From contig CP036272.1 of the NCBI GenBank assembly GCA_007745635.1, forward strand, positions 6,749,566 through 6,813,565: a DNA stretch of 64,000 nt, written 5' to 3'. Position 1 is the stretch's first letter. Each line of letters starts with the position of its first letter. Of this stretch, positions 1 to 52,820 are shown one piece after another. The position numbers were made by a program, and so were the translations under genes. Origin of the DNA: Stieleria bergensis. GTDB taxonomy: Bacteria; Planctomycetota; Planctomycetia; Pirellulales; Pirellulaceae. Under the pieces are notes generated by a model. That model had not been told where the DNA came from and made no database searches. It saw only the letters and a list, made by a program, of their open reading frames with translations.

Positions 1-1822
1 ACGGCTGGTCGCTGGCCTGCTCGGTGGGGATCGCTCGCGCCGGACGAACAGGCGTGTCTTTACCATGGTCGTCGAACATCCCAAGATGTGTCACCAGCTT
101 GTCACCACGACCACCAACCAACTGGAATTCGAACCCGACTTCTCCAGTGACATCGTTTCGCAAGTTGTGCCACCCAGGGTCCGCGAACAACTCGGCTCCG
201 TCGGCGACTGCCAACTCTCTGGCATGTCCTCGGTTATGAATCTTCAAAAGCGTGGCCGCCAGTTCACTGGCGATCGGATCGGCACTCTGGCTGGAAATGT
301 CTCCGTCTTCATAGAGGTTCTTCGTCAGGTCATACAACACCGTCGGCCTGGCATCGCCACGCGATCCCTGTGACGACCACCGCCCCCAAGGCATGACAAG
401 ACCGCCATCGACAATCAGCTTGTGTGATCCCTGTCGGATCGCCAACGCATCATTCAGATAAGGCGGCCCAAGGTGACAAAAGAAGACACGCGGGCGATCG
501 TCGGCTGTTTTCAGCGAACCCGTCCAATAGTCGAAAACGTCGTAGCTGTCTTGAGCTTCATCAGCCGCCAGCGAGTGACCCGCAAGACGGGCCAGCGTCG
601 CGTACAGATCCGTCAACGTGACGATCGACCGATTGACTTTTGCACCCTCTAGAACCGCCGGCCAAGAAACGATAAAGGGTACTCGGATGCCGCCTTCCCA
701 GAGCTTTGCTTTCTTGCCTCGCAAGCCGCCGCTTTCTTGATTGCGGCCAAGATTGTCGCCGGTGTTCGGCCCATTGTCACTGGTAAAGATGATCAGCGTG
801 TTCTCATCCAGCTTGTGTCCGGGCCAGCGAGGATCGTCGGTCGAGCGCAGCTTCTTGAGCAGCCTTCCAAACACGACGTCGTTCTCAAGTACCATGTCTT
901 CGCGGTCGCTTGCGATCCCGCCGTCACTGTAACGACTCTGGCCTTGAATGGCTTGACCACCGACATGATCGGGAACGGCATAGTCGCCCTGCGGGTTCCT
1001 CTGGAGGTGATTCGCATTGGGCACATAATAAAGAAAGAAGGGCTGGGCAGCCTGTGCGGCCTGGCGATCAAGGAACGATTCTGCCTCCTGTAGATAAAGG
1101 GGTCCAAGGTCGCGTTGATCCCAATCGGGAGCCGCCAGAATTCGTCCGGCTCGATTCTTCATGCCGATCAACTGCATGCGACTGCGATCGGTGAAGACAA
1201 AACGATCGTTGCGAATCAGAACACGCGGTTCGGTATCCAGCGGGTCCTCGGTGTTGCCAGGCACTCCAAAGTACTCATCAAAGCCGTGATGCGTCGGCCC
1301 ATCGAGCAACGGTTTTGTGAAGTCCACATCGTGAAAGTAGAAATCGTCCGCTGGCTGCCCGTCTCCATCATCAAAGGACATGCCAACGTGATACTTCCCG
1401 ATGCCGGCGGTGCGATATCCATTCTGTTGCAGCATTTCAGGCAGCGTCGTCAGAGCCCGTTGAATCAGGGGCTGATTCGGTCCGTGCGGCAGCCAACCCT
1501 GGTACTTCAGAGACGACCGATGAGCGAATCGGCCAGTCAACAAGGAATACCGTGTCGCACTGCACATCGACGCCGGCGCGTATCCATCGGTGAACAGGGT
1601 CGCTGAACGCGCGAATGATTCGAGATGCGGAGTCCGCAGCGTTCTCTCGATCGGCGGTCCACTGGGACTCAAACGCACGCCGAGATAGGCGCTCGTGTCC
1701 CCAATCCCCATATCGTCTGCCATCATGACGATCAGATTGGGCTTGGCGGGCCGTGGGTCTGCGGCCTGGCAGGTCGTCCCCAAGCCGATCAGGAGGACAA
1801 GGCACAGGAGCTTGTTCATCAT
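1..1822 (-). CDS. Secreted Cys-type sulfatase (partial, C-terminus outside window)
   Basis: Open reading frame that runs off the left edge, so the C-terminus is missing. Known family role: type I sulfatases hydrolyse sulfate esters, here probably on polysaccharides in the periplasm. Seen: a signal peptide (residues 1-20), the N-terminal metal-binding stretch MMADDMG near 33-39, the formylglycine motif C87-S-A-T-R (Cys-type, with Ala in place of the usual Pro), GIGKYHVG around the catalytic Lys/His, and TSDNGPNTG as the second metal-binding block. The start ATG at 1822 overlaps the stop of the upstream DUF1501 gene (ATGA), so translation is probably coupled. A second Met codon follows immediately. 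It is the last visible gene of the cluster headed by the sigma gene at 11878. The substrate cannot be told from sequence. Confidence 0.9.
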   Translation of the reverse strand, partial: MMNKLLCLVLLIGLGTTCQAADPRPAKPNLIVMMADDMGIGDTSAYLGVRLSPSGPPIERTLRTPHLESFARSATLFTDGYAPASMCSATRYSLLTGRFAHRSSLKYQGWLPHGPNQPLIQRALTTLPEMLQQNGYRTAGIGKYHVGMSFDDGDGQPADDFYFHDVDFTKPLLDGPTHHGFDEYFGVPGNTEDPLDTEPRVLIRNDRFVFTDRSRMQLIGMKNRAGRILAAPDWDQRDLGPLYLQEAESFLDRQAAQAAQPFFLYYVPNANHLQRNPQGDYAVPDHVGGQAIQGQSRYSDGGIASDREDMVLENDVVFGRLLKKLRSTDDPRWPGHKLDENTLIIFTSDNGPNTGDNLGRNQESGGLRGKKAKLWEGGIRVPFIVSWPAVLEGAKVNRSIVTLTDLYATLARLAGHSLAADEAQDSYDVFDYWTGSLKTADDRPRVFFCHLGPPYLNDALAIRQGSHKLIVDGGLVMPWGRWSSQGSRGDARPTVLYDLTKNLYEDGDISSQSADPIASELAATLLKIHNRGHARELAVADGAELFADPGWHNLRNDVTGEVGFEFQLVGGRGDKLVTHLGMFDDHGKDTPVRPARAIPTEQASDQP

Positions 1823-3114
1823 GCGAATAGATCCAATACGGGCTCGCCTTTGTGGGCAACAGTGAACGGCCGACCGGTCGGACTGATGAGCTCCTGGCCG
1901 ATCGGAATCCCCAGTGCGTAAGCAATGGTGGCGTTGAAGTCGGGAATCGTCACTGGGTTCTCCACCACTTCTTCGCCGCCCGGGGAGGTTTTTCCGTAGA
2001 CGTAACCACTTTTGAAGCCGCCTCCGGCCACGACGCTGGAAAACGCTTTGGGGTAATGGTCGCGGCCTCGGTTCTGATTCGTGACCGGAGTGCGCCCAAA
2101 TTCGGTGGTCAGAACCACAACGGTGTCGTCCAGTTTCCCGATCCGTTGCAGATCATCAAGTAAAGCGCCGACCGTGCGGTCCATCGTGTTACACAGCACA
2201 GGCATCGCGGTAAAATTGTCGGCGTGCGTGTCCCAGCCTGTGTAGCTGACTTCAACGGTGCGAACGTTGCTTTCGATCAAACGGCGAGCGAGCAGACATC
2301 CCTGGCCAAAGGGGTCGTCCCCGTATCGGTCTTTTGTCGCTTGGTTTTCGCGATGAATATTGAAGGCGGCCAGATCAGCGCTCTCCATCAAGCGGACGGC
2401 ATCTTCGTACATGTCACCGTAGGCTCGAATTGGCTTGGAACGGTAACGCTGAAGAAATTCGGCATCCAGATCACCGGCCAACCTGAGACGCCGATCGAAG
2501 CGTTCGGAGGGAACATTGCGATTAGCATGCTTCAAGCCAAAGCGTGGATCGCTGATCGCCAATGGCTCGAACTCGGGTTCAAAGAAACCGCCACTGCCGT
2601 GAAAGCGACTTTCTTTACCAATGAAGACCGAACCGGGCATGGTGGTGTTGAGCTTCCCGTGCGTTCGCTGCGCCCAGGCACCTAACCCCGGATGCCGAAT
2701 CGTCGCCCGCTGATCGTAACTGGTGTGCATGAAATAGTTGCCCTTCTCATGATCGCCCGCCGTCGAGGTGAGTGAGTTGACGACGCAAAGCTTGTCGGCA
2801 TGGCGAGCCAATTGAGGCAGATGGGTGGAAACGCGAAAGCCATCGACGCTGGTATTCATGGACTGCGTCGAGCCCTGGTTCTCATGATTTGGTTTCACGT
2901 CCAAGGTGTCGAGATGGCTCATGCCTCCTGCCATGAAGAGATAAATCAGTTGCTTGGCAGGCTTGCTACGCGGCGCAGGCCCCGGCGCGCCGGCTTCGGC
3001 GAATGACTCGCTGGCGCCAAAGCCGAGTGTGCTGCCCGCGCTAACACCCAGAAAGCTGCTGGCGGCAAGTTCAACAAATCGACGGCGATTGAAATGAGAT
3101 TGTTGGCTGATCAT
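1819..3114 (-). CDS. DUF1501 family secreted protein (Tat signal)
   Basis: Member of the DUF1501 family, a planctomycete/verrucomicrobial group with an alkaline-phosphatase-like fold and no settled function. The reading frame is open 44 codons further upstream, but ATG 3114 is chosen because it puts a Tat-type signal (NRRRFVELAASSFLG) at the N-terminus and starts 11 bases after the stop of the DUF1549/1553 gene. Family motifs seen are FMAGGMSHLDTLD near the N-terminus, SYTGWDTHADN in the middle and TTEFGRTP near the C-terminus. It sits between the DUF1549/1553 gene and a sulfatase whose start codon overlaps its stop. DUF1501 and DUF1549/1553 proteins are habitually paired and are presumed to act together outside the cytoplasm; that partnership is inference. 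Confidence 0.9.
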   Translation of the reverse strand: MISQQSHFNRRRFVELAASSFLGVSAGSTLGFGASESFAEAGAPGPAPRSKPAKQLIYLFMAGGMSHLDTLDVKPNHENQGSTQSMNTSVDGFRVSTHLPQLARHADKLCVVNSLTSTAGDHEKGNYFMHTSYDQRATIRHPGLGAWAQRTHGKLNTTMPGSVFIGKESRFHGSGGFFEPEFEPLAISDPRFGLKHANRNVPSERFDRRLRLAGDLDAEFLQRYRSKPIRAYGDMYEDAVRLMESADLAAFNIHRENQATKDRYGDDPFGQGCLLARRLIESNVRTVEVSYTGWDTHADNFTAMPVLCNTMDRTVGALLDDLQRIGKLDDTVVVLTTEFGRTPVTNQNRGRDHYPKAFSSVVAGGGFKSGYVYGKTSPGGEEVVENPVTIPDFNATIAYALGIPIGQELISPTGRPFTVAHKGEPVLDLFA

Positions 3115-3124
3115 GGTGAGCACA

Positions 3125-5449
3125 CTATTGAATGAAGAGGAATTGGCGGGAGTTAAGCAATGCCCAGACGAGATCTTCAAAGGTCTCGTCACCATGTTGT
3201 TCGTAGTCGGCAAGGATGCGCTTCGTTTCGCGTTCGGTTGGTTCACGAGTCAGCATGGCGCGATAGACCACGGCAATCTTTTCTTCGGGGCTAGTTGCCG
3301 CTTGCATTTGTGAACCCAGAACGGAGTTTCGATTGTGCACCGCAACCGCCAGCGGACTGTTCAGCAAATAAAGTGACTGAGGCACCGACGCGTGCGATGA
3401 CGCATTCTCGATCACGTCTCGATCCGATTGGCCGAAGTCGCGGAGAAAGTGACCGCGCCGAGCGGGTGAAGGCAGATCAACAGCACGAGCCATTTCACGA
3501 GCCACATCACGAAAGCCTTTCAACTGGCGTTGTTCTCGTTCCAGCCAGCGTTTGCGTTCCTGTTCGTCTAACTCTTCGGGAGGCTTGGGAACCCTGGCTG
3601 CCTTGATGAAATCAAGCGTTGCGGCCGAGCCCACGACGGGCTGGTTCCCGGTCATGGTCATCATCATTCCTTGGGGCCCCGCGTCGCCCTCGGTTAGATC
3701 AACGAAAACCGTCGCTCGATTCAGTTGATCGATCTCGCGTGTCCTCTGCTTCAACTCACTGGTCAGCCGCCGTGCTTCCTGTTCCTTTCCGGCTTTGTAG
3801 GCGGCAAGAATAAGCGACTGGTACTTTTCTTGCTCCTGACTGAACTCACGATTGCGTGCTCCGGCAACTTTCATTCGCTCCAAGACTTCTTCCATCGGCC
3901 GGACTTCCAAGCTGTGATGCTTTGCCCGAGTCTCGGCAATCCGCCGAAGCAGTTTGGGGCGATTGGGTGTGTGCGTGTCGATCTCGGGAAGAACCAGCGT
4001 TGCGATTGAATCCCAAAGTTGCTCGGCACTCATTCGCTTCATGAACGGGCCGGTAAAATCAAAGGGCGTTCCCAGCGGATGATCGGTGCCTTCCATCTGG
4101 CGGCGGAAGAGATCGGTGTGAAGCAGGACGCTTTGGAATTTGCGAATGTCATAATCTAACTCGCGCATTAGGTCTTCCAGATAAGCGAGCAGCTCGGGCA
4201 TTTCGATCTCGGTCGCATCACTGAGATCATCCACCGGCTCGAAGATTCCATGACCGAATGTGCGTTTCCAAATCCGATTGACAATGACGGTGGTGAAACG
4301 CGGGTTGTCCGGTGAAGTCAGCCACTTCGCGTAGGCGTTTTTGCGAGTGATTTGATCGGCTTGCGGCGGAACGTCGGCGCCGAACATCGTCTTGGGCAAC
4401 ACCACGTCTAACGGCTTGGCATCGTCGTATTGGTAGTCGTGGGGAAGCGTGAGAGGTCGATCGAGGTGCCTGACTTGAGTGTAGGTGATACTGTTTCCGA
4501 GCTGGGAAATGTTGCCTCGAATCGGCTCATTGAACTCCGCCAGCTTTCTGTCGGCGGCCATTCCAGCATCGACGTGTTGGCGAAATTGTGCTTCGGTCAG
4601 ATTGTGTTCCGCTAAGAACTTTGCCGCATGAGGCTTGGCAAGGAAGTCTGCAACTTTTTCTTCACTGCGAAAGTACGGAAAGCCTTGAATGGGAATCGCG
4701 TCAGAGTAAGCCTGCTTCTCTTCGCGTGTCAGCGCAACGAGCATCTTGCTACGGTTCACGCCACCACCACGATGGTCAAAATCGTAGGTAAAGGCGGCCA
4801 TCCTGAAAAAGTCCATTTGCGTCCACTCGTCGAACGGGTGGTCGTGGCACTGGGCGCATTCCAGTCGCGTGCCCAGAAAGACGCGCGCGGTGTTCGACAT
4901 ATTGTCCAGGGGCATGCCGGTGTCTCGAATGTAATACGCCGCGGCCGGGTCATCGAAGACCAGTCCGTGGCCGCTGACCAGACGGCGAGCGAATTCATCG
5001 TACGGCGTGTTCGCATGAATCTGCTGACGGATCCACTCGCGGTACACCAGCGACCAGTGCTGTCCCGAGGGAACACGCAAAAGGTCAGCCCAGAATTGAA
5101 AGTGATGCGCGGTGTACGCCGCGTCATTGGCCAGCAGGTTCTGGATCAGATCCGAGTGTTTGTCGGCGCTGTTGGAATTCAGAAAGTCAGCGGATTCAGA
5201 CGTGGTTGGAATCCGGCCAACGATGGTCAGGAACGCTCTGCGAACAAATTGCTGATCGTTAATCGTGGCGTTGGGCTTGAGCTGCTTGTCGGCCAAGTGC
5301 GCCAACACCAGCTGATCGATTTTTCTGGCGGCACGCTGACGGTCGAATCCCTCCGCTGTTGCGGAAAGGGAACCGAACGCAACGAGACAGATTGTGCAAA
5401 GCGTCAGCCGGAACAATGGCTGCCTGGTTTTTATCAAGAGCTGGAACAT
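3125..5449 (-). CDS. DUF1549/DUF1553 planctomycete cytochrome-type secreted protein
   Basis: 774 residues with an N-terminal signal segment (about 10-32). A DUF1549 (PSCyt2) region spans about 40-250 with C198-A-Q-C201-H202 followed by DHPFDEW, which fits a c-type heme site. A DUF1553 (PSD1) region spans about 380-770, with typical stretches TVIVNRIWKRTFGHGIFEPVDD and LLNSRQFLFIQ. Unlike the related gene at 37090-39372 it lacks an additional N-terminal cytochrome domain and Ig-like domain. A basic, charged helical insert occupies about 530-600. Function is unproven; the family is thought to be extracytoplasmic and redox-linked. A promoter-like element (5493-5523) precedes it, so it may be transcribed separately from the fusion gene upstream. 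DUF1501 follows after 11 bases. Confidence 0.92.
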   Translation of the reverse strand: MFQLLIKTRQPLFRLTLCTICLVAFGSLSATAEGFDRQRAARKIDQLVLAHLADKQLKPNATINDQQFVRRAFLTIVGRIPTTSESADFLNSNSADKHSDLIQNLLANDAAYTAHHFQFWADLLRVPSGQHWSLVYREWIRQQIHANTPYDEFARRLVSGHGLVFDDPAAAYYIRDTGMPLDNMSNTARVFLGTRLECAQCHDHPFDEWTQMDFFRMAAFTYDFDHRGGGVNRSKMLVALTREEKQAYSDAIPIQGFPYFRSEEKVADFLAKPHAAKFLAEHNLTEAQFRQHVDAGMAADRKLAEFNEPIRGNISQLGNSITYTQVRHLDRPLTLPHDYQYDDAKPLDVVLPKTMFGADVPPQADQITRKNAYAKWLTSPDNPRFTTVIVNRIWKRTFGHGIFEPVDDLSDATEIEMPELLAYLEDLMRELDYDIRKFQSVLLHTDLFRRQMEGTDHPLGTPFDFTGPFMKRMSAEQLWDSIATLVLPEIDTHTPNRPKLLRRIAETRAKHHSLEVRPMEEVLERMKVAGARNREFSQEQEKYQSLILAAYKAGKEQEARRLTSELKQRTREIDQLNRATVFVDLTEGDAGPQGMMMTMTGNQPVVGSAATLDFIKAARVPKPPEELDEQERKRWLEREQRQLKGFRDVAREMARAVDLPSPARRGHFLRDFGQSDRDVIENASSHASVPQSLYLLNSPLAVAVHNRNSVLGSQMQAATSPEEKIAVVYRAMLTREPTERETKRILADYEQHGDETFEDLVWALLNSRQFLFIQ

Positions 5450-5492
5450 CGTTTACGGCTTGCGAATGTCGGAAGGTGTTTCCTATCGATAA

Positions 5493-5523
5493 CAACTAAT
5501 ACCACTGACGACTGTCAGGTAAC
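5493..5523 (-). promoter_or_regulatory. Candidate ECF-type promoter, second copy
   Basis: Read on the minus strand this starts GTTACCTGA and continues, after 7 bases, with CAGTGGTATT and a final TTG. An equal-length element at 11907-11937 matches at about 23 of 31 positions with the same spacing. The two conserved blocks are about 15-16 bases apart, which suits the -35/-10 geometry of ECF sigma promoters. It ends 43 bases before the DUF1549/1553 start codon. Recognition by the sigma factor of this cluster is inferred. Confidence 0.55.
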
Positions 5524-5550
5524 ATGCGTCCCCAAACTTTACAACCATTT

Positions 5551-8500
5551 TCAAGGCAACCTCACTTCCAACGGTGCCGTCAGATCATCGCTTTCGGCGA
5601 CCCGCTGGTTGTCCACCCAGACATAGAGCTTGCTCTGGTCTCCGGGCTGGTTGCTGTCCCAGTCCTTTCTCCACAGGATCTCGACGTCGTGGCCGTGGTA
5701 GCGTAGGTCTCCTAGATACAGGTATTCCCAAGCATTCGGCGGAACCAGTGGATGGATCGTGAAGCGATTCTCATGACTGGCTTGAAAACCGATGAGATCC
5801 TCGATCAGCATGTCGGGGAAGGTGGAATGGAAGTAATCCTGAACATCTCCAAAGCCCTTGCCCATCGCGGGATGGCTCTGGACAACATCGCCACCACCGG
5901 GCATTCGGTAGCCGCCAGTGCGAGGCAGATACCACTCACCGATTGTTCGGCGACGACCGTGAAGTTCAACATACTGCGTCATGTGATCGTAAAGCAGTTG
6001 CCGATCCGCGTCACTGATCTCCCCTCGCGTCGCTTTGTAATTCCGCAGGTAGTTGGCATAGGCCTTGTAGACGATCGAGTTCTGAAAGGGCCAACCGCGT
6101 CCATTCCAACCGTAGGACATTTCATTGAAGAAGTCGTGGCGATACTCGGCGGTCGACATCCCGAAAGGTTGCTTGAAGCCCAGTTCATCATCGAACTGTT
6201 TCCAGGCAACATCGAACTGGCTATCGGCCGAAGGCAACAGATTGAAATACCAAGGCGTGTAGCCAACGGTTTCGCGAATGATGCTAAGTTGATCGCCCAC
6301 GCCGCCTGCATGCAGGTTGTCACCGGCAAGGCGAGAATAAAAGAAGGGATCGTCGCTGGCACCTCGCTGGCTGTAGAACAGATACTTGTCGTCCTTCGTT
6401 GGACGATGCCACAGGGACTTGATGATTTGCTGTTGAAGCTGCCTGGCGCGTTGGGTGTATTGCTGGGCTTTGGCACCAGCCTGTGCGTCCGGAGTCGCTT
6501 CGGCCTGTTGCGCATACAACCTGCTGAGGGAAGCGTAGTTCCCATACATGTAACAATTGAGCGACGGTCGAACGGTAAAGCAGTTGGGATAGCTGTTTGG
6601 CCGTTTGGACTTTCGCTCGCCGTCCCTGTCGACATACCAGTCGTGATTGCCACCGAATGGCTGGGGCTTGGCGCTGTAGTTGTCCAGATCAAAGGGCTGA
6701 GGATAAATCAGCGGGTCATTCTTTAGGCCTTCCTGAAAGGCCGCCTGCCAGCCTTTGCCATCGGTGAAGTAGCGCCGCCAGAGTTCCTGTCCCTTATACG
6801 GTTCTTCCTGGTTGATTTCAGCGGTGTAACGAGAGAAAGCGCCCTGTGCGGCGATCAGCCCCAACGTGGTCGAGATCGTGAACTCGTTGGCGTCGTACAT
6901 GTCCAGACACTTGTACAGTCCATCGGTCGTTTGCCCCGGAGCTTTGACCTGGAAAATCAGATCCCAGATCGCCTGGTGACGCTCCATCGCCGGCAGCAGT
7001 CGGTCGCGCCACTGAGCATCGGGATGAATCTTCAGCATGGCCTCCGAAGCGTCGACCATCCAGCTGGTGTAGTGATGGCTTTGCGGCCGCGGCAGCGTCG
7101 ACAACCAGGTGTTGTTCTGGTGCTGCATTTTGCGAGCGGGAGGCCCGGCCAGCCAATACTCTGCATACGATTTCAAGTACCTTGGATCACGCATCCAGCG
7201 GAGATCATAAAACTGGTGTCCAGCAGGCGCCGGGATGGCACCGCTGTTGGAAGCCCAACCGGGAAAGCCGGGGAACTCGGTGAACACATAGAATTGATCG
7301 CCGTCTTCCTCCCATTGTTTGAGATGCTTGCTGATCATCCACCAGCGATAGTTGAAGACTTCGGTGTAGTCTTCGTTGGAACAGAGAAATTTGGGGACGT
7401 TCTGTTGCAAGAACTCTTCGTTGTTGTGCTTTTCCAGCCAGCCGTCAAACTCGGGTCGATTGCCGTTCAGGTGAGAGTAACCGTTGAACTCGTCCACATC
7501 CTCGGTCAGTGTCCGCTGGGCTTCCTTCCGGATCCGCTTTAATTCTTTATCTGGGTCACTCAAGGGCAGCGATGGACTGGGGGCATCGTCGGCATGAAAG
7601 CGACAGGCCAGCATGCCGCCGGAAAGCCGTGGGTGAAGCTCGACCTCGATGCGAATCTTCGACGTCGTGACGGGCTGGGCAAACGTCACTTGGTTGAACT
7701 GATCTCGCTGAACACCGGGACTGGTTTCGTTCAGAGCAACTTGTTTCCAGCCGCCGTCATTCCAGGCGAGCACCTTCCAGGACTTGGGAAGGTTTTCCTG
7801 GCGCTCGTTGCGAAACGAGGCCGCAGCCTGAGCTTCATCAAACCAGTACACGCCCACATTCTCAAAGGTTCCAGGTTCTGAAAACTGAAACTGGACCCAC
7901 TCGGTGCTGCCACGATTTGGATGAAAGCTGAGGCGTGGAATGCGGTAGTCGGACGAGGACGCGGGCTCGTCCTCGTCGATCAATGCGGTGACATTGGCGC
8001 CGCGAACCGACGACGAGACCCGAGGGGCATGCCGTGTTTCGGGAAACGGTTTGACATTCGCTCGAACAGCAAAGCGACTCCAGTGGCCAGACAGTTTGGC
8101 GACAAGTTCAGGGTGCTCGTCGGCGACGTTATTGGTCTCACTGCGATCGTGTGTGAGGTCATAAAGTTCCCAAACGATCGGTTCACTGCGATCATTATCG
8201 GTGACCAGTTTCCACCGCCCCAGACGAACTGCGGCGTGCGTCTCATGCTGCCAAAAGATCGGTCGATCCTCCATTTCCCGATCCGGTTGCCGCAAGTAGG
8301 GCAGCATGCTGACACCTTCGAGTGGCAGCCGAGACTTGCCACCGTAGCTTGCCGGGTACGCTGCGCCGGCGGCATCCAGCAAGGTGGGCATGATGTCAAT
8401 GAAGTGAAAGTAGGGCTGATTGGACACCGTGTCCTTGGCTGAGAAACCGTCCGGCCAGTGGACGATCAGAGGAGAGGCAATGCCTCCCTCATGGGCGAAC

Positions 8501-9870
8501 TTTTTGAACTTACGAAACGGCGAATTCGAATAGGAAGCCCATCCCTGTCCCTGCGAAGTGGCCCAGCCGCTGAGTTTCTTCCATTGATCGTAATTGGATT
8601 TTTGATAGCCAGTCCCCCCCAGCTTGTCCTTGTGCGACCAGGCACCTTCCTCCCGCGATCCCCGGCGAGTGAACTCGCCATTGCGAAACTCGCCCTCGGG
8701 GTAATCATATTTCCCGCCCGCGAAGTGAGTGCCGAAAACGCTCATCTCACCCGAGCATCCATTGTCCGAAACGAACAGGATCAGTGTGTTGTCGTAGACG
8801 CCTTCTGCCTTCAACTTGTCGACAACGCGTCCAATGTTCTGGTCCATGCTGTCGATCTGAGCGTTGTAGATAGCGCGTCGAAACCGAGCCTCCGCCGTGA
8901 CGTCTGCGGGCAGATCTTTCCACTTCGGTAGCGGGTTGCGATTGGTTCCGGTCTGCATGCCGGGCATGATTCGAACGTTATTGAAATAACGCACTTCAGG
9001 CAATCGTTGCCCCTTCGGGACCACTCCCGATGCTTTCTGTCGCGCGAGTTTTTTCTCCCGCATCTCATCCCAACCGTCCCCGTATTCGGCAATCCAGTTC
9101 GGGTCATTGAGCTTCGCCTCGTATTTGGCGATCGTTTCATCGGGTGCTTCAAGAGGGAAGTGCGGTGCGTTGTAAGTCAAGTAGAGAAAAAACGGCTTGT
9201 CGTCATCCTTGACCGCATCGTCGATGTATTCCAAAGCCACATCAGTGAAGTATTCAGTGGTATAGAAATCCTGATCGGGCTGATAAGGGTTCTTCAGCGT
9301 CGTGTTCTCGTTGTCTCCGGGAATCAACAGTTTCCCGTCCCGGTAGATGTCACAACCTTGGAGCACTTTCCAATAGCTGTCGATATGGGTACGAACCACC
9401 GTGGATCGATCAAAGCCACGGTGTTCGGGAAGCGAGTGGGGTGGAGGATCGCGATGCGCTGCGGCATGCCATTTACCGCTGGTAAACGTGTTGTAACCAG
9501 CTTGCTTCAATGCTTCGCCCAGTGTGACCCCGTTTTCATTCAGCGACCCTTCATAGCCGGTGCCCCAGTCGCCATAGACCATGAAGCCGACTCCGGCCTG
9601 ATGCTGATAGAGGCCGGTCAGCAAACTGGCGCGCGATGGGCAACAACGCGCGGCGTTGTACATCTGCGTAAAACGCACACCTTTCTCCGCCAGAGCGTCC
9701 AGTCGAGGCGTTTCGATCTCGCTGCCATAGCAACCAAGGTCCGAATAGCCCAAGTCGTCAGCCAGAATAACGATGATATTCGGTTTCGAATCCGCGGCCA
9801 CCCATCGTGAACATGGAAACAGGCAAACCAAAAGGAGCGCAGCGGAAACGTGACAGAAGGGAAGTTTCAT
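5551..9870 (-). CDS. Sulfatase fused to discoidin-like module and six-hairpin glycosidase
   Basis: About 1439 residues, roughly three times a normal sulfatase. ATG 9870 is chosen because it starts a clean signal peptide (residues 1-26); the frame is open 25 codons further upstream. Module 1 (about 28-590) is a type I sulfatase with [12 protein letters not shown]76-C-P-S-R (Cys-type), TSGKWHAA and FVSDNGCSG. Module 2 (about 620-790) resembles an F5/8-type C (discoidin) beta-sandwich, with STEWVQFQFSEPG and FENVGVYWFDE, and probably binds carbohydrate. Module 3 (about 800-1410) looks like an (alpha/alpha)6 glycoside hydrolase of the GH63/MGH1 kind: GWNGRGWPFQNSIV corresponds to the clan's W-x-G-P-x-W-P-x-x-N block, and EWYLPRTGG to its C-terminal E-x-Y-x-P-x-T-G block. 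Inferred role: desulfation and glycoside cleavage by one secreted polypeptide. The exact GH family is uncertain. Confidence 0.85.
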   Translation of the reverse strand: MKLPFCHVSAALLLVCLFPCSRWVAADSKPNIIVILADDLGYSDLGCYGSEIETPRLDALAEKGVRFTQMYNAARCCPSRASLLTGLYQHQAGVGFMVYGDWGTGYEGSLNENGVTLGEALKQAGYNTFTSGKWHAAAHRDPPPHSLPEHRGFDRSTVVRTHIDSYWKVLQGCDIYRDGKLLIPGDNENTTLKNPYQPDQDFYTTEYFTDVALEYIDDAVKDDDKPFFLYLTYNAPHFPLEAPDETIAKYEAKLNDPNWIAEYGDGWDEMREKKLARQKASGVVPKGQRLPEVRYFNNVRIMPGMQTGTNRNPLPKWKDLPADVTAEARFRRAIYNAQIDSMDQNIGRVVDKLKAEGVYDNTLILFVSDNGCSGEMSVFGTHFAGGKYDYPEGEFRNGEFTRRGSREEGAWSHKDKLGGTGYQKSNYDQWKKLSGWATSQGQGWASYSNSPFRKFKKFAHEGGIASPLIVHWPDGFSAKDTVSNQPYFHFIDIMPTLLDAAGAAYPASYGGKSRLPLEGVSMLPYLRQPDREMEDRPIFWQHETHAAVRLGRWKLVTDNDRSEPIVWELYDLTHDRSETNNVADEHPELVAKLSGHWSRFAVRANVKPFPETRHAPRVSSSVRGANVTALIDEDEPASSSDYRIPRLSFHPNRGSTEWVQFQFSEPGTFENVGVYWFDEAQAAASFRNERQENLPKSWKVLAWNDGGWKQVALNETSPGVQRDQFNQVTFAQPVTTSKIRIEVELHPRLSGGMLACRFHADDAPSPSLPLSDPDKELKRIRKEAQRTLTEDVDEFNGYSHLNGNRPEFDGWLEKHNNEEFLQQNVPKFLCSNEDYTEVFNYRWWMISKHLKQWEEDGDQFYVFTEFPGFPGWASNSGAIPAPAGHQFYDLRWMRDPRYLKSYAEYWLAGPPARKMQHQNNTWLSTLPRPQSHHYTSWMVDASEAMLKIHPDAQWRDRLLPAMERHQAIWDLIFQVKAPGQTTDGLYKCLDMYDANEFTISTTLGLIAAQGAFSRYTAEINQEEPYKGQELWRRYFTDGKGWQAAFQEGLKNDPLIYPQPFDLDNYSAKPQPFGGNHDWYVDRDGERKSKRPNSYPNCFTVRPSLNCYMYGNYASLSRLYAQQAEATPDAQAGAKAQQYTQRARQLQQQIIKSLWHRPTKDDKYLFYSQRGASDDPFFYSRLAGDNLHAGGVGDQLSIIRETVGYTPWYFNLLPSADSQFDVAWKQFDDELGFKQPFGMSTAEYRHDFFNEMSYGWNGRGWPFQNSIVYKAYANYLRNYKATRGEISDADRQLLYDHMTQYVELHGRRRTIGEWYLPRTGGYRMPGGGDVVQSHPAMGKGFGDVQDYFHSTFPDMLIEDLIGFQASHENRFTIHPLVPPNAWEYLYLGDLRYHGHDVEILWRKDWDSNQPGDQSKLYVWVDNQRVAESDDLTAPLEVRLP

Positions 9871-9968
9871 GATCAAACTGAAAGCGGGGAAGAAGAATTG
9901 TGAGACTGGCGCGAGTGATCGCGAAACAAGAAGATCTCTTTTCATGTGGTGTTTCCATTCATCGTTCG

Positions 9969-11366
9969 TTACTCCGCCTCCACGAGCACGCGAAACTGAT
10001 CCAGATTGCCTGGATTTTCCTGCAATTCGATGATCAGCGTTCGCCGGTCGGCCGCCAGAATCACGGTATCGAATCCTGGACGCTGATCTCCCTGGGGGCG
10101 AGGCTCAATCATCCGAGGCCCTGGGTATTCGACACCGGGAAGTCCAAAGACGACCTCTGATTGTTTCAGCAAGCGATTGGCTATGATCACTCCGACGATC
10201 GGTTTGGCAAACGTGATCTGGCCGCGAACGCTCCGCCTTCGATTGGGATTTTTGCCTTCCGGATGAGCATTCAGCTGAAGCAGATAGCTCGTCAATTTCT
10301 GCTTCGTCAGCAAGACTGGCTTCTCGCCAGAGCTCGTCTTGGCGAATTGACCGGGATCGACCATGTCCACGCGAATCGTTTCGTTGGAAACAAATCCACG
10401 GCGTTCCGGGAACACGACGATATGATCATTGTCCTCGTAGTTCCCCGGATGAAAATCGGGGCCAGGAGAGACAAATCGCATTGAACCGGTGGTTTGCAGA
10501 ACACCGGAATTGACCGGCCAGGCCTTTTCAAACGCAGAGGTGTCATAGACGATGGAGTCGATCGCGCTGGGTCCCGCACCAGCTCGGACGGCTTCGCCTT
10601 CCCTTAGCAAATGAGGCCTCTCTCCGAGCTGCTTCTTCTCGGGCGAGCTGACTTCGACCTCGCCCTCAAAGACGCAGACATCGGTTGTTCCGTCGTCTCC
10701 AACGGAGACACCGAATGAGGTTCCCAGATCGACCACATGCGCCGTGTCCGTGTCCACGACAAAGCCGATGGCGGACTCTGGAATCGTCGCCGTGATGACG
10801 CCGCTCATCAGGCTCACTCGCATTTCATCAACGACTTCAATCTTGGCGGGCCCTTCGATGGTCAGCCGTGCTCGGTTGACAAAGTCCAGCCGAACCACGC
10901 CGCGATCAACAATCAGCTCGCCTGGTTGAACCCTCTGACCGGACAGCAATGCGACGCCTTCGCGATCGTATGCACCCACCGCTTGCGTAATGATCGCTGG
11001 CGGGCGCGTGCCCTTCGACTGACCAATGCCGGGGTTTCGTGTTGCCAGCCAAGCGATGCTACCGAACAGCACCAGAAATGTGGCCGCGACAGAGGCAACG
11101 AAGGCAAACACCTTCCTTCTGGACCGATCAGCAACCATTGATTTCGGTTCAACCTCCACGGCATTTGCCGAGTCCGCTGGAGGCGGAAGACAGTCGGCCA
11201 GCACAGCCCGCAGCGCCGAGTGCGCGGCGATCTGGTCAAAATAGAGCTTTCGAACCGCCTCGTCTGATTCGACGCGTTTCAACAGGTCTTCGCGCCCGTC
11301 ATCATCCAACACTCCGTCGAGCATTTCCTGGATCAGCGAAGCTGCAGAACGTTCATCAACACTCAT
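9969..11366 (-). CDS. FecR-like single-pass membrane regulator (putative anti-sigma)
   Basis: 465 residues. The cytoplasmic N-terminus (about 1-60, LIQEMLDGVLDDDGREDLL...) resembles the sigma-binding region of planctomycete FecR-like proteins. A basic linker and one membrane segment (about 85-107) follow, then a periplasmic FecR domain (about 120-260) with VRLDFVNRARLTIEGPAKIEV, VVDLGTSFGVSV and CVFEGEVEV. A further C-terminal domain (about 300-465) ends in the conserved block DTVILAADRRTLIIEL. That block recurs in the damaged FecR gene at 14352, showing the two are related. The start ATG overlaps the stop of the sigma gene (ATGA). Inferred role: membrane-held control of the sigma factor in response to an outside signal. 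Confidence 0.88.
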   Translation of the reverse strand: MSVDERSAASLIQEMLDGVLDDDGREDLLKRVESDEAVRKLYFDQIAAHSALRAVLADCLPPPADSANAVEVEPKSMVADRSRRKVFAFVASVAATFLVLFGSIAWLATRNPGIGQSKGTRPPAIITQAVGAYDREGVALLSGQRVQPGELIVDRGVVRLDFVNRARLTIEGPAKIEVVDEMRVSLMSGVITATIPESAIGFVVDTDTAHVVDLGTSFGVSVGDDGTTDVCVFEGEVEVSSPEKKQLGERPHLLREGEAVRAGAGPSAIDSIVYDTSAFEKAWPVNSGVLQTTGSMRFVSPGPDFHPGNYEDNDHIVVFPERRGFVSNETIRVDMVDPGQFAKTSSGEKPVLLTKQKLTSYLLQLNAHPEGKNPNRRRSVRGQITFAKPIVGVIIANRLLKQSEVVFGLPGVEYPGPRMIEPRPQGDQRPGFDTVILAADRRTLIIELQENPGNLDQFRVLVEAE

Positions 11367-11878
11367 TCGGTTGCCCCCTTTTGAAGACGTTCTTCAACAC
11401 ATGCGGCCAATAAATTTCGCATCCGATAAAGCAACTGCTTGATGGCCGAAGTTGTTTTGCCATGGTCTGCGGCCAGCGTCGCAATCGCAACCTCCTTGCC
11501 GTAACGACTGTGCAGCAAAGCTTTATGGTCGTCCGAGAGTCGCTCGACGCATCCGCCCAACAACTGAATCCGCCGCTCGGTATCCTCTGCCATGACCTCT
11601 GCGACGGGAGCCAGTTTCTCGGCAATGGCTTCATGAACGACCAAGCGATCGCGTTTTCGATCTCGCAGATAGGCTAGCACTTGAAAGCGGGCCGTGCTGT
11701 AAGCCCAGGACTCGAACTTCGCGTCACTGCGAAAATCGTCAGCCTTACGAATCAGAACCAAATTGGTCTCTTGCAACACGTCCTGTGCCGCTGCTGAATC
11801 AGCCAGCAACGACAAAATAAAGGCATGCAATCGGTTCTGAATCGCCGTCACGGCAAGGAAATACTGATCGGATGTCAT
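11363..11878 (-). CDS. ECF-type RNA polymerase sigma factor (planctomycete type)
   Basis: 172 residues from ATG 11878, chosen over an upstream in-frame Met because everything before it lacks sigma similarity and because the promoter-like element at 11907-11937 would otherwise fall inside the gene. Region 2 is seen in DVLQETNLVLIRKADDF and FESWAYSTARFQVLAYLRD. Region 4 (helix-turn-helix) is seen in LHSRYGKEVAIATLAADHGKTTSAIKQLLYRMR. There is no extra domain. The last four bases overlap the FecR-like gene. It heads the cluster running to the left edge and probably directs transcription of that cluster and of itself (inference from the repeated motif). Confidence 0.92.
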   Translation of the reverse strand: MTSDQYFLAVTAIQNRLHAFILSLLADSAAAQDVLQETNLVLIRKADDFRSDAKFESWAYSTARFQVLAYLRDRKRDRLVVHEAIAEKLAPVAEVMAEDTERRIQLLGGCVERLSDDHKALLHSRYGKEVAIATLAADHGKTTSAIKQLLYRMRNLLAACVEERLQKGATE

Positions 11879-11906
11879 ACTCAACACGCATTTAGGGCCC
11901 CAACGA

Positions 11907-11937
11907 CAATAAATACCACTGTCAGGCATCAGGTAAC
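11907..11937 (-). promoter_or_regulatory. Candidate autoregulated ECF-type promoter, first copy
   Basis: On the minus strand: GTTACCTGA, 7 variable bases, then CAGTGGTATT, then TTG after two bases. It ends 28 bases before the sigma start codon, a suitable distance for a transcription start just downstream. It matches the element at 5493-5523 in both blocks and in spacing. Self-activation of an ECF sigma operon is a common arrangement; here it is inferred from the repetition. Confidence 0.6.
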
Positions 11938-12114
11938 GCCGCACACCGGTTTTTCATTGAAAAGCCCGTGCTGGCGATTGAAAGCCCCCTCACGGACGCA
12001 GGGCCGGCACTTCGCTGCGTTCACCCAAGCCGGCACCGTTTCCTTCCGAAGCGGTCACAACATGAAGTTCCAGCTGCACATTTTGATTCCGATCGCCAGC
12101 GTTTGAGCAAGAAC

Positions 12115-13527
12115 TCATCTGTCGTCGCTGACTGTCACGCGTGTGTACGGACTTGAGAGGTAGGTTCGCAGTTTTTGATCTTGGTAGTCGATGATTTTCC
12201 GATGGTTCGTGAAGACGTCGAGATGCTTAGCCCCCGATGCGATTGGGATTTCCGCCACCCACGCGGTTCCTTCGCGCTTCATCTCCATGCTGTTTTCGTT
12301 TGGAATCAGCTCTTTCAAGTAACTGGGGCTTCCGTCGGGCCCACGATCACTGATCCACCAAATCCTTCCGGACTCTTCGCCAGAGTTGTCTGCGAAACGG
12401 ACGGTGACTTTCAATCGCTTGCCATCCACACGGGTTTCAATGCGGGGCGGTGTAAGAAGTGGCTGCTTGACGGACTCCGGGAAAAAGTGACGCAACAGGA
12501 ATGCAGATTTATTCTGCTGATCGCGTTCGGTCCTTGGATGGCCTTTGCCGCCGTGGCCGGTGTTGGCCCCAAGGTACACGGGGATGGTCGGATGATGACT
12601 GCCACCCCAAACCAGATCGTAGGCAACCATGTCGTGAGTGCCTGGATGAAACAGCATCTCGACGCCACGCTCACGCAAAGCGTTGAGGTTGCGGGAGATA
12701 AACACTTGATCGGAGATCCCGGCAGCGAAGGCCTGCAGATCTTTCCACGACTGTCCGGCATCGAGAGCTCGTTGGTTGAAGTTAGGACCGTAATGCCCGC
12801 CGGAAAAGCCTCGCTGCGAGCCGCCTTGGGCAAGGTGTCGATCCCAAGTTTCCCGATCACAGAGGCGCAGAGGCGAATCCCAGATTGGCGACACCGTGGC
12901 GTGAATCGCGGTCATGCGATCATCGTGCAGGATCGCCATTGACGGAGAGGCCCCATTTTTGGACCCTCCGCTGGCTGCGATTTTGCCTTTTTCAAAATGA
13001 TCGACTTCAGCGTAGGCCGTCGTGATGGCGCGCATTAAAGTGGCTGGCCATGCCCAATACTGAATTTTGAACCTGGGATTCAAAGTCTGCGCAAAACGCT
13101 TTTCCGATTCCGAAGACAACTCACGCTGACCGTAGGTGCCTGGCTCTTGGACGACGGTGTACACCAATCCCACACCACCTTCGATCAACTGCTGAAACAC
13201 AGCGTTGGGCCTGGCATCTTGCTTCAATCGGTCCGGCGTACTGGAACCGGTCAGGTGAAACCCCTTGGCCTTTCGATCGACGGGCACGACCATGCGAACG
13301 GGGACGCGATATGCCTGCCCTTTCCAAAGGTCGCCGACATTGATGGTGACTAGTTTTTGCCGTGTCGCAACTCGGCCTTGGACAACGTGCCAATCCTGCA
13401 AGACTTCGATTTCCAAAGTGCTTGCGTCACGAATCGCCTCCATGTCAAAAACATCCATCGCTGGAGATTCGGAAGCAATGAATAGAATGGCGATTGCAGC
13501 TGATAAAAATGACTTGGTCAATGGCAT
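12115..13527 (-). CDS. Secreted alpha/beta hydrolase, PhoPQ-activated pathogenicity-related (PqaA) type
   Basis: 470 residues with a signal peptide (about 1-23, cut after ESPA or nearby). The core resembles the PhoPQ-activated pathogenicity-related family, a group of alpha/beta-hydrolase-like proteins of unknown substrate. SGGSKNG (186-192) fits the nucleophile elbow with S189. HPGTHDMVAYDL and ANTGHGGKGHP are candidate sites for the acid and His of a triad. The tryptophan-rich region YWAWPATLMRAITTAY precedes the elbow as in that family. The C-terminal 110 residues look like a beta-rich add-on. It stands alone between two sigma-headed clusters and points the same way as the left one, with 236 bases before that cluster's sigma gene. 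Family assignment is fairly likely; enzymatic activity is not shown. Confidence 0.7.
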   Translation of the reverse strand: MPLTKSFLSAAIAILFIASESPAMDVFDMEAIRDASTLEIEVLQDWHVVQGRVATRQKLVTINVGDLWKGQAYRVPVRMVVPVDRKAKGFHLTGSSTPDRLKQDARPNAVFQQLIEGGVGLVYTVVQEPGTYGQRELSSESEKRFAQTLNPRFKIQYWAWPATLMRAITTAYAEVDHFEKGKIAASGGSKNGASPSMAILHDDRMTAIHATVSPIWDSPLRLCDRETWDRHLAQGGSQRGFSGGHYGPNFNQRALDAGQSWKDLQAFAAGISDQVFISRNLNALRERGVEMLFHPGTHDMVAYDLVWGGSHHPTIPVYLGANTGHGGKGHPRTERDQQNKSAFLLRHFFPESVKQPLLTPPRIETRVDGKRLKVTVRFADNSGEESGRIWWISDRGPDGSPSYLKELIPNENSMEMKREGTAWVAEIPIASGAKHLDVFTNHRKIIDYQDQKLRTYLSSPYTRVTVSDDR

Positions 13528-13827: not shown

Positions 13828-14355
13828 ATGGAAAATTCAGACACCGTACAACGAATGACGATCGAGTGGACGCGGGCTCAGCCTGCGGTGCGGCGGTTTA
13901 TCGGCACCTTCCTGCGTGATCGCGTGGATTGCGAAGATGTGCTGCAGGATGTCGCTCTGGTCGTTGTTGAGAAATTTGAAGATTGGGACCCCCAACGCCC
14001 TTTCATTCGCTGGGCTCTGGGGATCGCAAGACGGGTAGTACTGGCCCACCTGCGAAAAAAACACCGCGACAAACAGGTCAAGTTTTCCCAGGCGATTGAC
14101 CAAGTTGCTCTGGCGATCAAAAAACTGGAACCCCAGGCGGAGGAAAGGAAGGCATCACTTGCCGATTGCCTTGGGCAAGTCCGTGGACAGAGTCGCGAGC
14201 TTCTTGCCCTGCGGTACTCCGAGGGACGTGAACTGAAGGAAATCGCTCAGCGGCTTGGCATGACAGCCAGCAATGTGGGTGTCATGTTGCATCGCGTGTG
14301 TGCGTCCTTGCGAAAATGTTTCGACGGAAAACTAAAAGCGGAGGGAATGACGTGA
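13828..14355 (+). CDS. ECF-type RNA polymerase sigma factor
   Basis: 175 residues from ATG 13828 (in-frame TTG and GTG codons lie just upstream). Region 2 is seen in DVLQDVALVVVEKFEDWDP and RPFIRWALGIARRVVLAHLRKKHRDK, and region 4 in LLALRYSEGRELKEIAQRLGMTASNVGVMLHRVCASLRKCF. It belongs to the same planctomycete sigma type as the gene at 52296, sharing the pattern of a -W-P/-E-RPF-x-W-A motif in region 2. The reading frame is intact although the following genes are damaged. Its stop TGA overlaps the GTG start of the FecR remnant (GTGA). Confidence 0.92.
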   Translation: MENSDTVQRMTIEWTRAQPAVRRFIGTFLRDRVDCEDVLQDVALVVVEKFEDWDPQRPFIRWALGIARRVVLAHLRKKHRDKQVKFSQAIDQVALAIKKLEPQAEERKASLADCLGQVRGQSRELLALRYSEGRELKEIAQRLGMTASNVGVMLHRVCASLRKCFDGKLKAEGMT

Positions 14356-52295: not shown

Positions 52296-52820
52296 ATGAG
52301 AGAAGAAGACAAACGAGAGCACTTCACCGAATGCTGGCTCAAAGCAGAGCCAGCCGTGTCGGCGTATGTCTTTGCATCGGTTTCTCTGTTTCATGACGCC
52401 GAAGATGTTATTCAGCGGATTGCCCAGGAATTAGCGCGTCGGTTTGACGAGTATGACTCGGAACGGCCATTTGTTGCCTGGGCGTTGTGGGTCGCCAAGT
52501 CACGAGTCATTGATCACTACCGCGCACGCGGGAGCAATCAGGTTGTGCTGCCCAACGATTTGCTGGGTAAACTGGCTGAGACGATGGCACAGCAAGCTGA
52601 CGGCCGGAACCAGCGTCGTGAAGCACTCGAGGCCTGTCTTGAAGCATTAACGCCAAAATCGCGACAAGTCCTGGACTTGCGGTACGTTGAAGAACTGTCC
52701 GCAGAGGAAGCAGCCCAACGGGTCGGTTCCACCAGCGGTTCCGTACGTGTCCTGCTTACCCGCATACGGACATCACTGGCCGGTTGCATTGAGCGACGGC
52801 TAGGCATGGAGCATTTGTAA
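52296..52820 (+). CDS. ECF-type RNA polymerase sigma factor
   Basis: 174 residues. Region 2: FHDAEDVIQRIAQELARRFDEYDSERPFVAWALWVAKSRVIDHYRA. Region 4: VLDLRYVEELSAEEAAQRVGSTSGSVRVLLTRIRTSLAGCIERRL. It shares the ERPF-x-W-A-L segment with the sigma factor at 13828 and belongs to the same planctomycete type. The TAA stop overlaps the ATG of the FecR-LamG gene (TAATG), so the two products are probably made in fixed proportion. It heads a plus-strand cluster with four sulfatases, of which it is the likely activator (inference). Confidence 0.93.
   Translation: MREEDKREHFTECWLKAEPAVSAYVFASVSLFHDAEDVIQRIAQELARRFDEYDSERPFVAWALWVAKSRVIDHYRARGSNQVVLPNDLLGKLAETMAQQADGRNQRREALEACLEALTPKSRQVLDLRYVEELSAEEAAQRVGSTSGSVRVLLTRIRTSLAGCIERRLGMEHL

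Follow-up and report, generated by a model that had tools for sequence, protein, structure and literature searches.

Analysis of a 64,000-nucleotide stretch of Stieleria bergensis DNA (hereafter the window) suggests, with a probability that we put at roughly 85%, that two similar elements on its minus strand, P1 and P2, are promoters read by the ECF sigma factor of the gene cluster in which they lie, P1 providing autoregulation and P2 a second promoter local to the cluster. P1 occupies positions 11912–11939 (GCGTTACC-N14-GGTATT) and is taken to be the -35/-10 promoter from which the sigma gene is transcribed; P2, the presumed second promoter, is located at 5498–5523 (GTTACC-N14-GGTATT). Planctomycetes possess many ECF sigma factors, the targets of which are mostly unknown. 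The existence of the elements was observed directly, as were their rarity and conservation, the constancy of their spacing and the strand on which they lie. Analysis of these leads us to regard the autoregulatory promoter as real and well supported and its second copy as probable; regulation of this kind is known.

The cluster genes described here are all on the minus strand. The sigma factor (11363–11878, 171 aa) belongs to the TIGR02989 family (141.6 bits, cut-off 124.55); Pfam matches its region 2 only, and the match to the TIGR02989 model extends to residue 161 and that to TIGR02937 to residue 157. Its gene shares a 4-base overlap with that of a FecR-domain protein (9969–11366; PF04773, 28.3 bits, cut-off 24), in which some 80 residues at the N-terminus are followed by a single hydrophobic stretch (judged by eye) and then the FecR domain. 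This is the layout of a membrane anti-sigma factor, and such a role is presumed for the protein. The remaining genes encode a protein of 1464 aa that combines a sulfatase with an MGH1-like glycosidase domain in a single frame (5551–9945; PF00884 and PF22422), the DUF1549/DUF1553 protein whose gene lies behind P2 (3125–5449; PF07583 and PF07587), a DUF1501 protein (1819–3246 as the longest frame; PF07394 at frame residues 97–474), the true start of which is probably later, and another sulfatase (2–1822; PF00884) that continues past the low end of the window. The G+C content of the cluster is 0.548–0.579 in 2 kb steps against 0.528–0.565 in the rest of the window, and this comparison across the window gives no sign of a foreign composition. 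Upstream of the sigma gene there is a 470-residue open frame (12115–13527, minus strand) without a Pfam or NCBIfam match at E≤0.001. Two further TIGR02989 sigma genes above the cut-off are present in the window, at 13861–14319 and 52320–52790 of the plus strand, and the whole genome has 45 TIGR02989 matches, of which 12 are above the cut-off.

In the form in which the earlier note had drawn them, the two elements occupy positions 11937–11907 and 5523–5493 of the minus strand and both follow the plan GTTACCTGA-7-CAGTGGTATT-5. We confirm that they are equal in length and have the same 7-base gap, with 23 of their 31 positions identical; the blocks of 9 and 10 bases are exact in both, P2 agreeing with P1 at 19/19 block positions. 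The ATG of the sigma gene (11878) is located 28 bases past the first element and the ATG of the DUF1549/1553 gene (5449) 43 bases past the second, as had been claimed. P2 sits on the sigma strand within the 101-base gap preceding the DUF1549/1553 gene, which is the sole large gap behind the FecR gene.

With a tolerance of 3 mismatches, a search of the genome (7,107,266 bases) for the two-block pattern returns two matches, both exact, namely P1 and P2; the reversed control returns one in the same genome. The 13 other genomes of the genus give 6 matches, none with fewer than 3 mismatches, while the control gives 11, and these 6 are background. Within the window, GTTACC-N14-GGTATT is matched 4 times if up to 2 mismatches are allowed (twice exactly), whereas shuffled windows have 1.42 matches on average and reach 4 in 2 of 100 cases. 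When the 160 bases before the sigma gene are compared with their own neighbourhood, a 19-base two-block match is obtained, which none of 40 shuffles reaches. A chance origin of the paired elements is unlikely, because the pattern is found at only two places genome-wide and a model built from relatives alone returns exactly these two. Random scatter over the genome, which the earlier note had named as the outcome that would speak against its proposal, did not occur.

Conservation of the element was followed in nine orthologous loci, namely the window, seven others with 71–86% protein identity and L110 (72%, genome G159). Sites were called with GTTACC-N15-GTATT allowing at most one mismatch, and all 15 sites in the nine loci are on the sigma strand. 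Nine of these precede sigma genes, four are second sites and two are counted as chance; the latter carry one mismatch each and are located at 1860–1835 of the window (before the next sulfatase, outside the 8 best minus-strand matrix scores) and at 9584 of L111, in sigma orientation. The element is present before the sigma gene in 9/9 loci with equal spacing (8 exact, L069 with one mismatch), at a distance of 33–68 bases from the sigma start. The motif conserved across the orthologs is GCGTTACC-N14-GGTATT, in which GCGTTACC and GGTAT are invariant in all nine promoters, and the last T, as well as the GT directly before the second block, is kept in eight. The two conserved blocks described earlier are real but were drawn too wide; TGA is present in the window only, and CA in 5/9 promoters. 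Mean information amounts to 1.76 and 1.68 bits in the blocks, 0.54 in the spacer and 0.33 and 0.37 in the flanks, which is the picture expected of candidate -35 and -10 boxes with a free spacer.

Spacing controls in 8 loci gave 9 exact matches for the true spacing and none for N13, N14, N16 or N17. With one mismatch the numbers are 14 against 0, 1, 2 and 0, and with two mismatches 34 against 12–25, where the true spacing is no longer far above the others. This footprint before nine out of nine sigma genes with weakly conserved spacer and flanks, the common strand of the 15 sites and the absence of exact matches at other spacings count for the promoter reading. The spacing of GTTAC-N15-GGTA is one that we take to resemble that of ECF promoters.

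At E≤1e-45, with 14 candidates scored per genome, orthologs of the sigma factor are found among the matches listed in 6/241 genomes of the family (own genome included) and 5/68 genera. The other 13 genomes of the genus contain none at this threshold, and the best relatives there are about 39% identical. This patchy spread suggests that the cluster and its promoter were transferred, or repeatedly lost, as a unit. The contig of L069 is labelled as Gammaproteobacteria and carries a planctomycete-type cluster with a sigma identity of 86%; the label may be a binning error.

A sequence-only model was built from 11 sites of the 8 other loci, with the window left out, and run on 13 genomes; 150 of about 2800–5900 candidates per genome were fully scored, and weak sites may be missed. 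At E≤10 it returns exactly two places in the own genome, P1 (E 0.0048) and P2 (E 1.07). Among seven genomes of the same genus without an ortholog, six are empty and one (G001) has a single match at E 1.12, which lies within open frames of both strands and is presumably false. Taken alone, this score does not make P2 significant, because the match in G001 has a comparable E. In five genomes of the family that have the sigma gene, the model recovers 7 of its own training sites, by construction. One new site is found in G198, at locus L141, where it precedes by 44 bases the remains of a second copy of the focal sigma gene; FecR-protein sequence continues in the same frame, and the tblastn matches amount to 70% over 60 residues and to 45% over 351. 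The sigma and FecR genes of L141 are decayed, but their promoter element is retained. The held-out matrix ranks P1 first (33.7) and P2 second (19.2) in the window, followed by 12.2, and on both strands of 13 further stretches (253 kb) of the own genome it scores 15.5 at best. The autoregulated sigma factor proposed in the earlier note is thus supported by both the held-out model and the footprint in all nine orthologous loci.

The same proposal expected the element to serve as a search pattern for the rest of the regulon, and no wider regulon was found in the genome. GTTACC-N14-GGTATT with up to one mismatch has 7 genomic matches (P1, P2 and 5 with one mismatch) against 32 for the reversed control. 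Four of the five extra matches fall inside open frames of at least 200 codons on either strand, and the fifth (L099) is located 27 bases before a 256-aa frame. A wider regulon was rejected on these numbers, and the regulon in the own genome seems to consist of two promoters only, as judged from such matches and from the held-out model.

Second sites were searched in 8 testable loci that extend 4.9–18.5 kb past P1; L072, which ends 1.5 kb after P1, was set aside. Four of the eight have a second site before a payload gene. This gene encodes the DUF1549/1553 protein in the window, a sulfatase 2.1 kb on in L069, a GH127 enzyme 10.4 kb on in L107 and a GFO/IDH/MocA protein (oxidoreductase) 2.6 kb on in L111, a contig of Rhodopirellula europaea 6C. 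The same scan gives none in L071, L108, L109 and L110. Outside the core, the second site of L069 is identical to P1 of its own locus at 52/74 positions and to P1 of L071 at 57/74, and that of L107 is identical to P1 of L072 at 42/74, where about 18/74 is expected at random. In these two cases the second site is likely to be a copied sigma promoter, as far as flank identity can indicate. The best flank matches of P2 in the window (31 of 74) and of the second site in L111 (28 of 74) do not make them clear copies.

It is possible, though unlikely, that P1 alone is autoregulatory and that P2 is a functionless remnant or a chance likeness. P2 is without the GC that precedes GTTACC in 9/9 P1 copies, and its E of 1.07, close to the 1.12 of G001, together with the 4/8 loci that have no second site, also counts against the promoter reading. 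However, the held-out model returns no site of the genome besides P1 and P2, P2 has all 19 block positions of P1, and it is on the correct strand in the one large gap behind the FecR gene. A second promoter, as claimed in the earlier note, gains support from the second-best held-out site of the genome, although at E 1.07 only, the second matrix rank and the second copies in three other orthologous clusters.

A test for repeated elements was applied to 23 sigma clusters (16 of the own genome and 7 of other genomes). The focal cluster scores 19 (0/40 shuffles), followed by L115 and L122 with 17 (0/40 each) and L119 with 16 (1/40); the rest score 15 or less, and a repeated element is absent in most of the 23 clusters tested. 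The match in L115 is on the opposite strand with no frame behind it, that in L122 is in apparent sulfatase coding sequence, and both were judged coincidental by eye. L119 was chosen for its promoter-box-like blocks, and genus-wide matches bore this choice out. In this locus of the own genome, GTTAACGAT-N12-TCGGCAT is present before a paralogous sigma gene (at genome position 6646386) and again 9.7 kb on before a sulfatase, the motif at both places being GTTAAC-N17-GGCAT. Exact GTTAAC-N15-TCGGCAT has 14 matches in the 14 genomes of the genus, spread over 7 of them, against one for the reversed control. Seven of the 14 precede orthologs of the L119 sigma gene (55–100% identity), one of which (L145) is decayed. 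Those in L153 and L152 precede sulfatase-like genes in clusters of the L119 type, L152 being located 4.9 kb behind L145. The match in L143 precedes a sulfatase-like frame and that in L151 the broken pieces of one, with no sigma sequence found beside either; the remaining three (L142, L146 and L150) are without explanation.

Upstream regions of 77 sigma genes were also compared, 30 from the own genome (the best 30 of its 45 TIGR02989 matches), 27 from other genomes of the genus and 20 from more distant ones. The last are the distant relatives among 28 loci on named contigs, of which 7 are orthologs and one (L096, a partial match in Pseudomonas) was dropped. A single motif for all TIGR02989 sigma factors was rejected, GTTAC-N16-GTATT being found before the focal gene only among the 77 regions. 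Other elements are present at the same place, namely GTTAAC-N15-GGCAT in 8 regions and its N17 form in 2, and GTGAGAT followed by GTAT after N13, N14 or N16 in 8. Because of L119 and these elements of other clades, the idea of autoregulation with a second copy holds beyond the focal cluster, with a motif that differs by sigma clade.

The elements of other clades also bear on the second rival explanation, in which TACC-N14-GGTA is an operator, an inverted repeat bound by a separate dimeric regulator of the sigma and payload genes. The repeat is exact in 9/9 P1 copies and counts against the promoter reading, as do boxes unlike AAC/CGT and the lack of a repeated element in most of the 23 clusters. 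However, GTTAAC-N15/17-GGCAT and GTGAGAT-N13..16-GTAT keep the two-block plan without the symmetry, and a separation of 18 bases is unusual for half-sites. To the extent inspected, the cluster contains no conserved gene for a separate regulator, whereas the sigma gene itself is conserved, and we consider an operator improbable. An RNA leader structure or a dispersed DNA repeat is hardly credible. The ends of the element could form 4 base pairs, but the consensus fold of the 9 leaders has -0.99 kcal/mol, with compensatory change in 0/4 pairs, and an RNA structure was rejected; the element is not dispersed, having two sites in the genome. The promoter reading is supported by the held-out sites in the own genome and before the decayed sigma copy, by the second sites in three other loci and by the same plan at the paralogous sigma gene.

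From the above we infer that the elements act as promoters, that the sigma factor reads them, that it is kept under restraint and that a signal frees it. RNA polymerase with the ECF sigma factor (11363–11878) would read P1 and P2 as -35/-10 promoters once the FecR-type membrane protein has released the sigma factor, perhaps in response to a sulfated glycan or its breakdown product, as might be guessed from the payload. Transcription from P1 by the free sigma factor would then cover three genes, those of the sigma factor itself, the FecR protein and the sulfatase-glycosidase, which would amount to positive autoregulation. From P2, 6.4 kb further on, the sigma factor would also transcribe the genes of the DUF1549/1553 and DUF1501 proteins and of the next sulfatase. 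These distal genes could already be within the range of read-through from P1, and P2 might offset losses over the 6.4 kb.

Overlapping sigma and anti-sigma-like genes with an ECF-like two-block element before the sigma gene are reminiscent of an autoregulated ECF sigma factor with a membrane anti-sigma factor. About 55% of the ECF factors with predictable targets are autoregulated, according to the relevant section of PMC8103513. The same section gives AAC (-35) and CGT (-10) as the classical boxes, which later classifications have abandoned as a defining feature (PMC8103513); the focal boxes differ from these (GTTACC and GGTATT). The focal case is also different in having a second copy within the same cluster, with no wider regulon found. 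An ECF sigma gene adjoining that of a FecR-domain protein with one hydrophobic stretch resembles the FecI/FecR systems of iron uptake, in which a TonB-dependent receptor is the target. However, that part of PMC8103513 singles out FecI-like factors as not being autoregulated, whereas the focal sigma factor appears to be autoregulated. Control of a DUF1549/DUF1553 gene by an ECF sigma factor is an idea already in print, as Studholme et al. proposed the ECF factor RB10049 as regulator of the DUF1549/DUF1553 protein RB10051 in Rhodopirellula baltica (cited in PMC2754498). The passage of PMC2754498 in question names no promoter sequence, and the focal case, which concerns another sigma factor, adds a conserved motif and a second site for it.

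In polysaccharide utilization loci of Bacteroidota, local ECF sigma/anti-sigma pairs are linked to sulfatases and glycosidases, as in the focal cluster, which differs in its TIGR02989 sigma factor and its DUF1549/1553/1501 payload. No paper naming the focal motif was recognised among the matches listed from the open-access literature on planctomycete ECF/TIGR02989 control; it may already have been predicted in the 2021 ECF reclassification.

The present analysis provides two concrete candidate sigma-promoter pairs that are directly testable, GCGTTACC-N14-GGTATT and GTTAAC-N17-GGCAT, and points to a specific candidate regulator for DUF1549/1553 and DUF1501 genes. A simple way to find more such pairs is to compare the region upstream of a sigma gene both with the orthologous regions and with the gaps in the surrounding cluster. 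As a tentative generalization, to which we give somewhat less than even odds, planctomycete sulfatase clusters might have private sigma factors with clade-specific promoter codes and might grow by copying the sigma promoter before added payload genes. Sigma factor and promoter would then move jointly between genera, and a genome would hold many independent pairs.

Two further features of the L119-type clusters were observed. In L145 (genome G008), the start of the sigma gene continues in one frame into an apparent sulfatase, its follower elsewhere, and the promoter element is intact. In the cluster of the second sigma factor, a frame at L119:16712-18994 joins a sulfatase and an alginate lyase domain.
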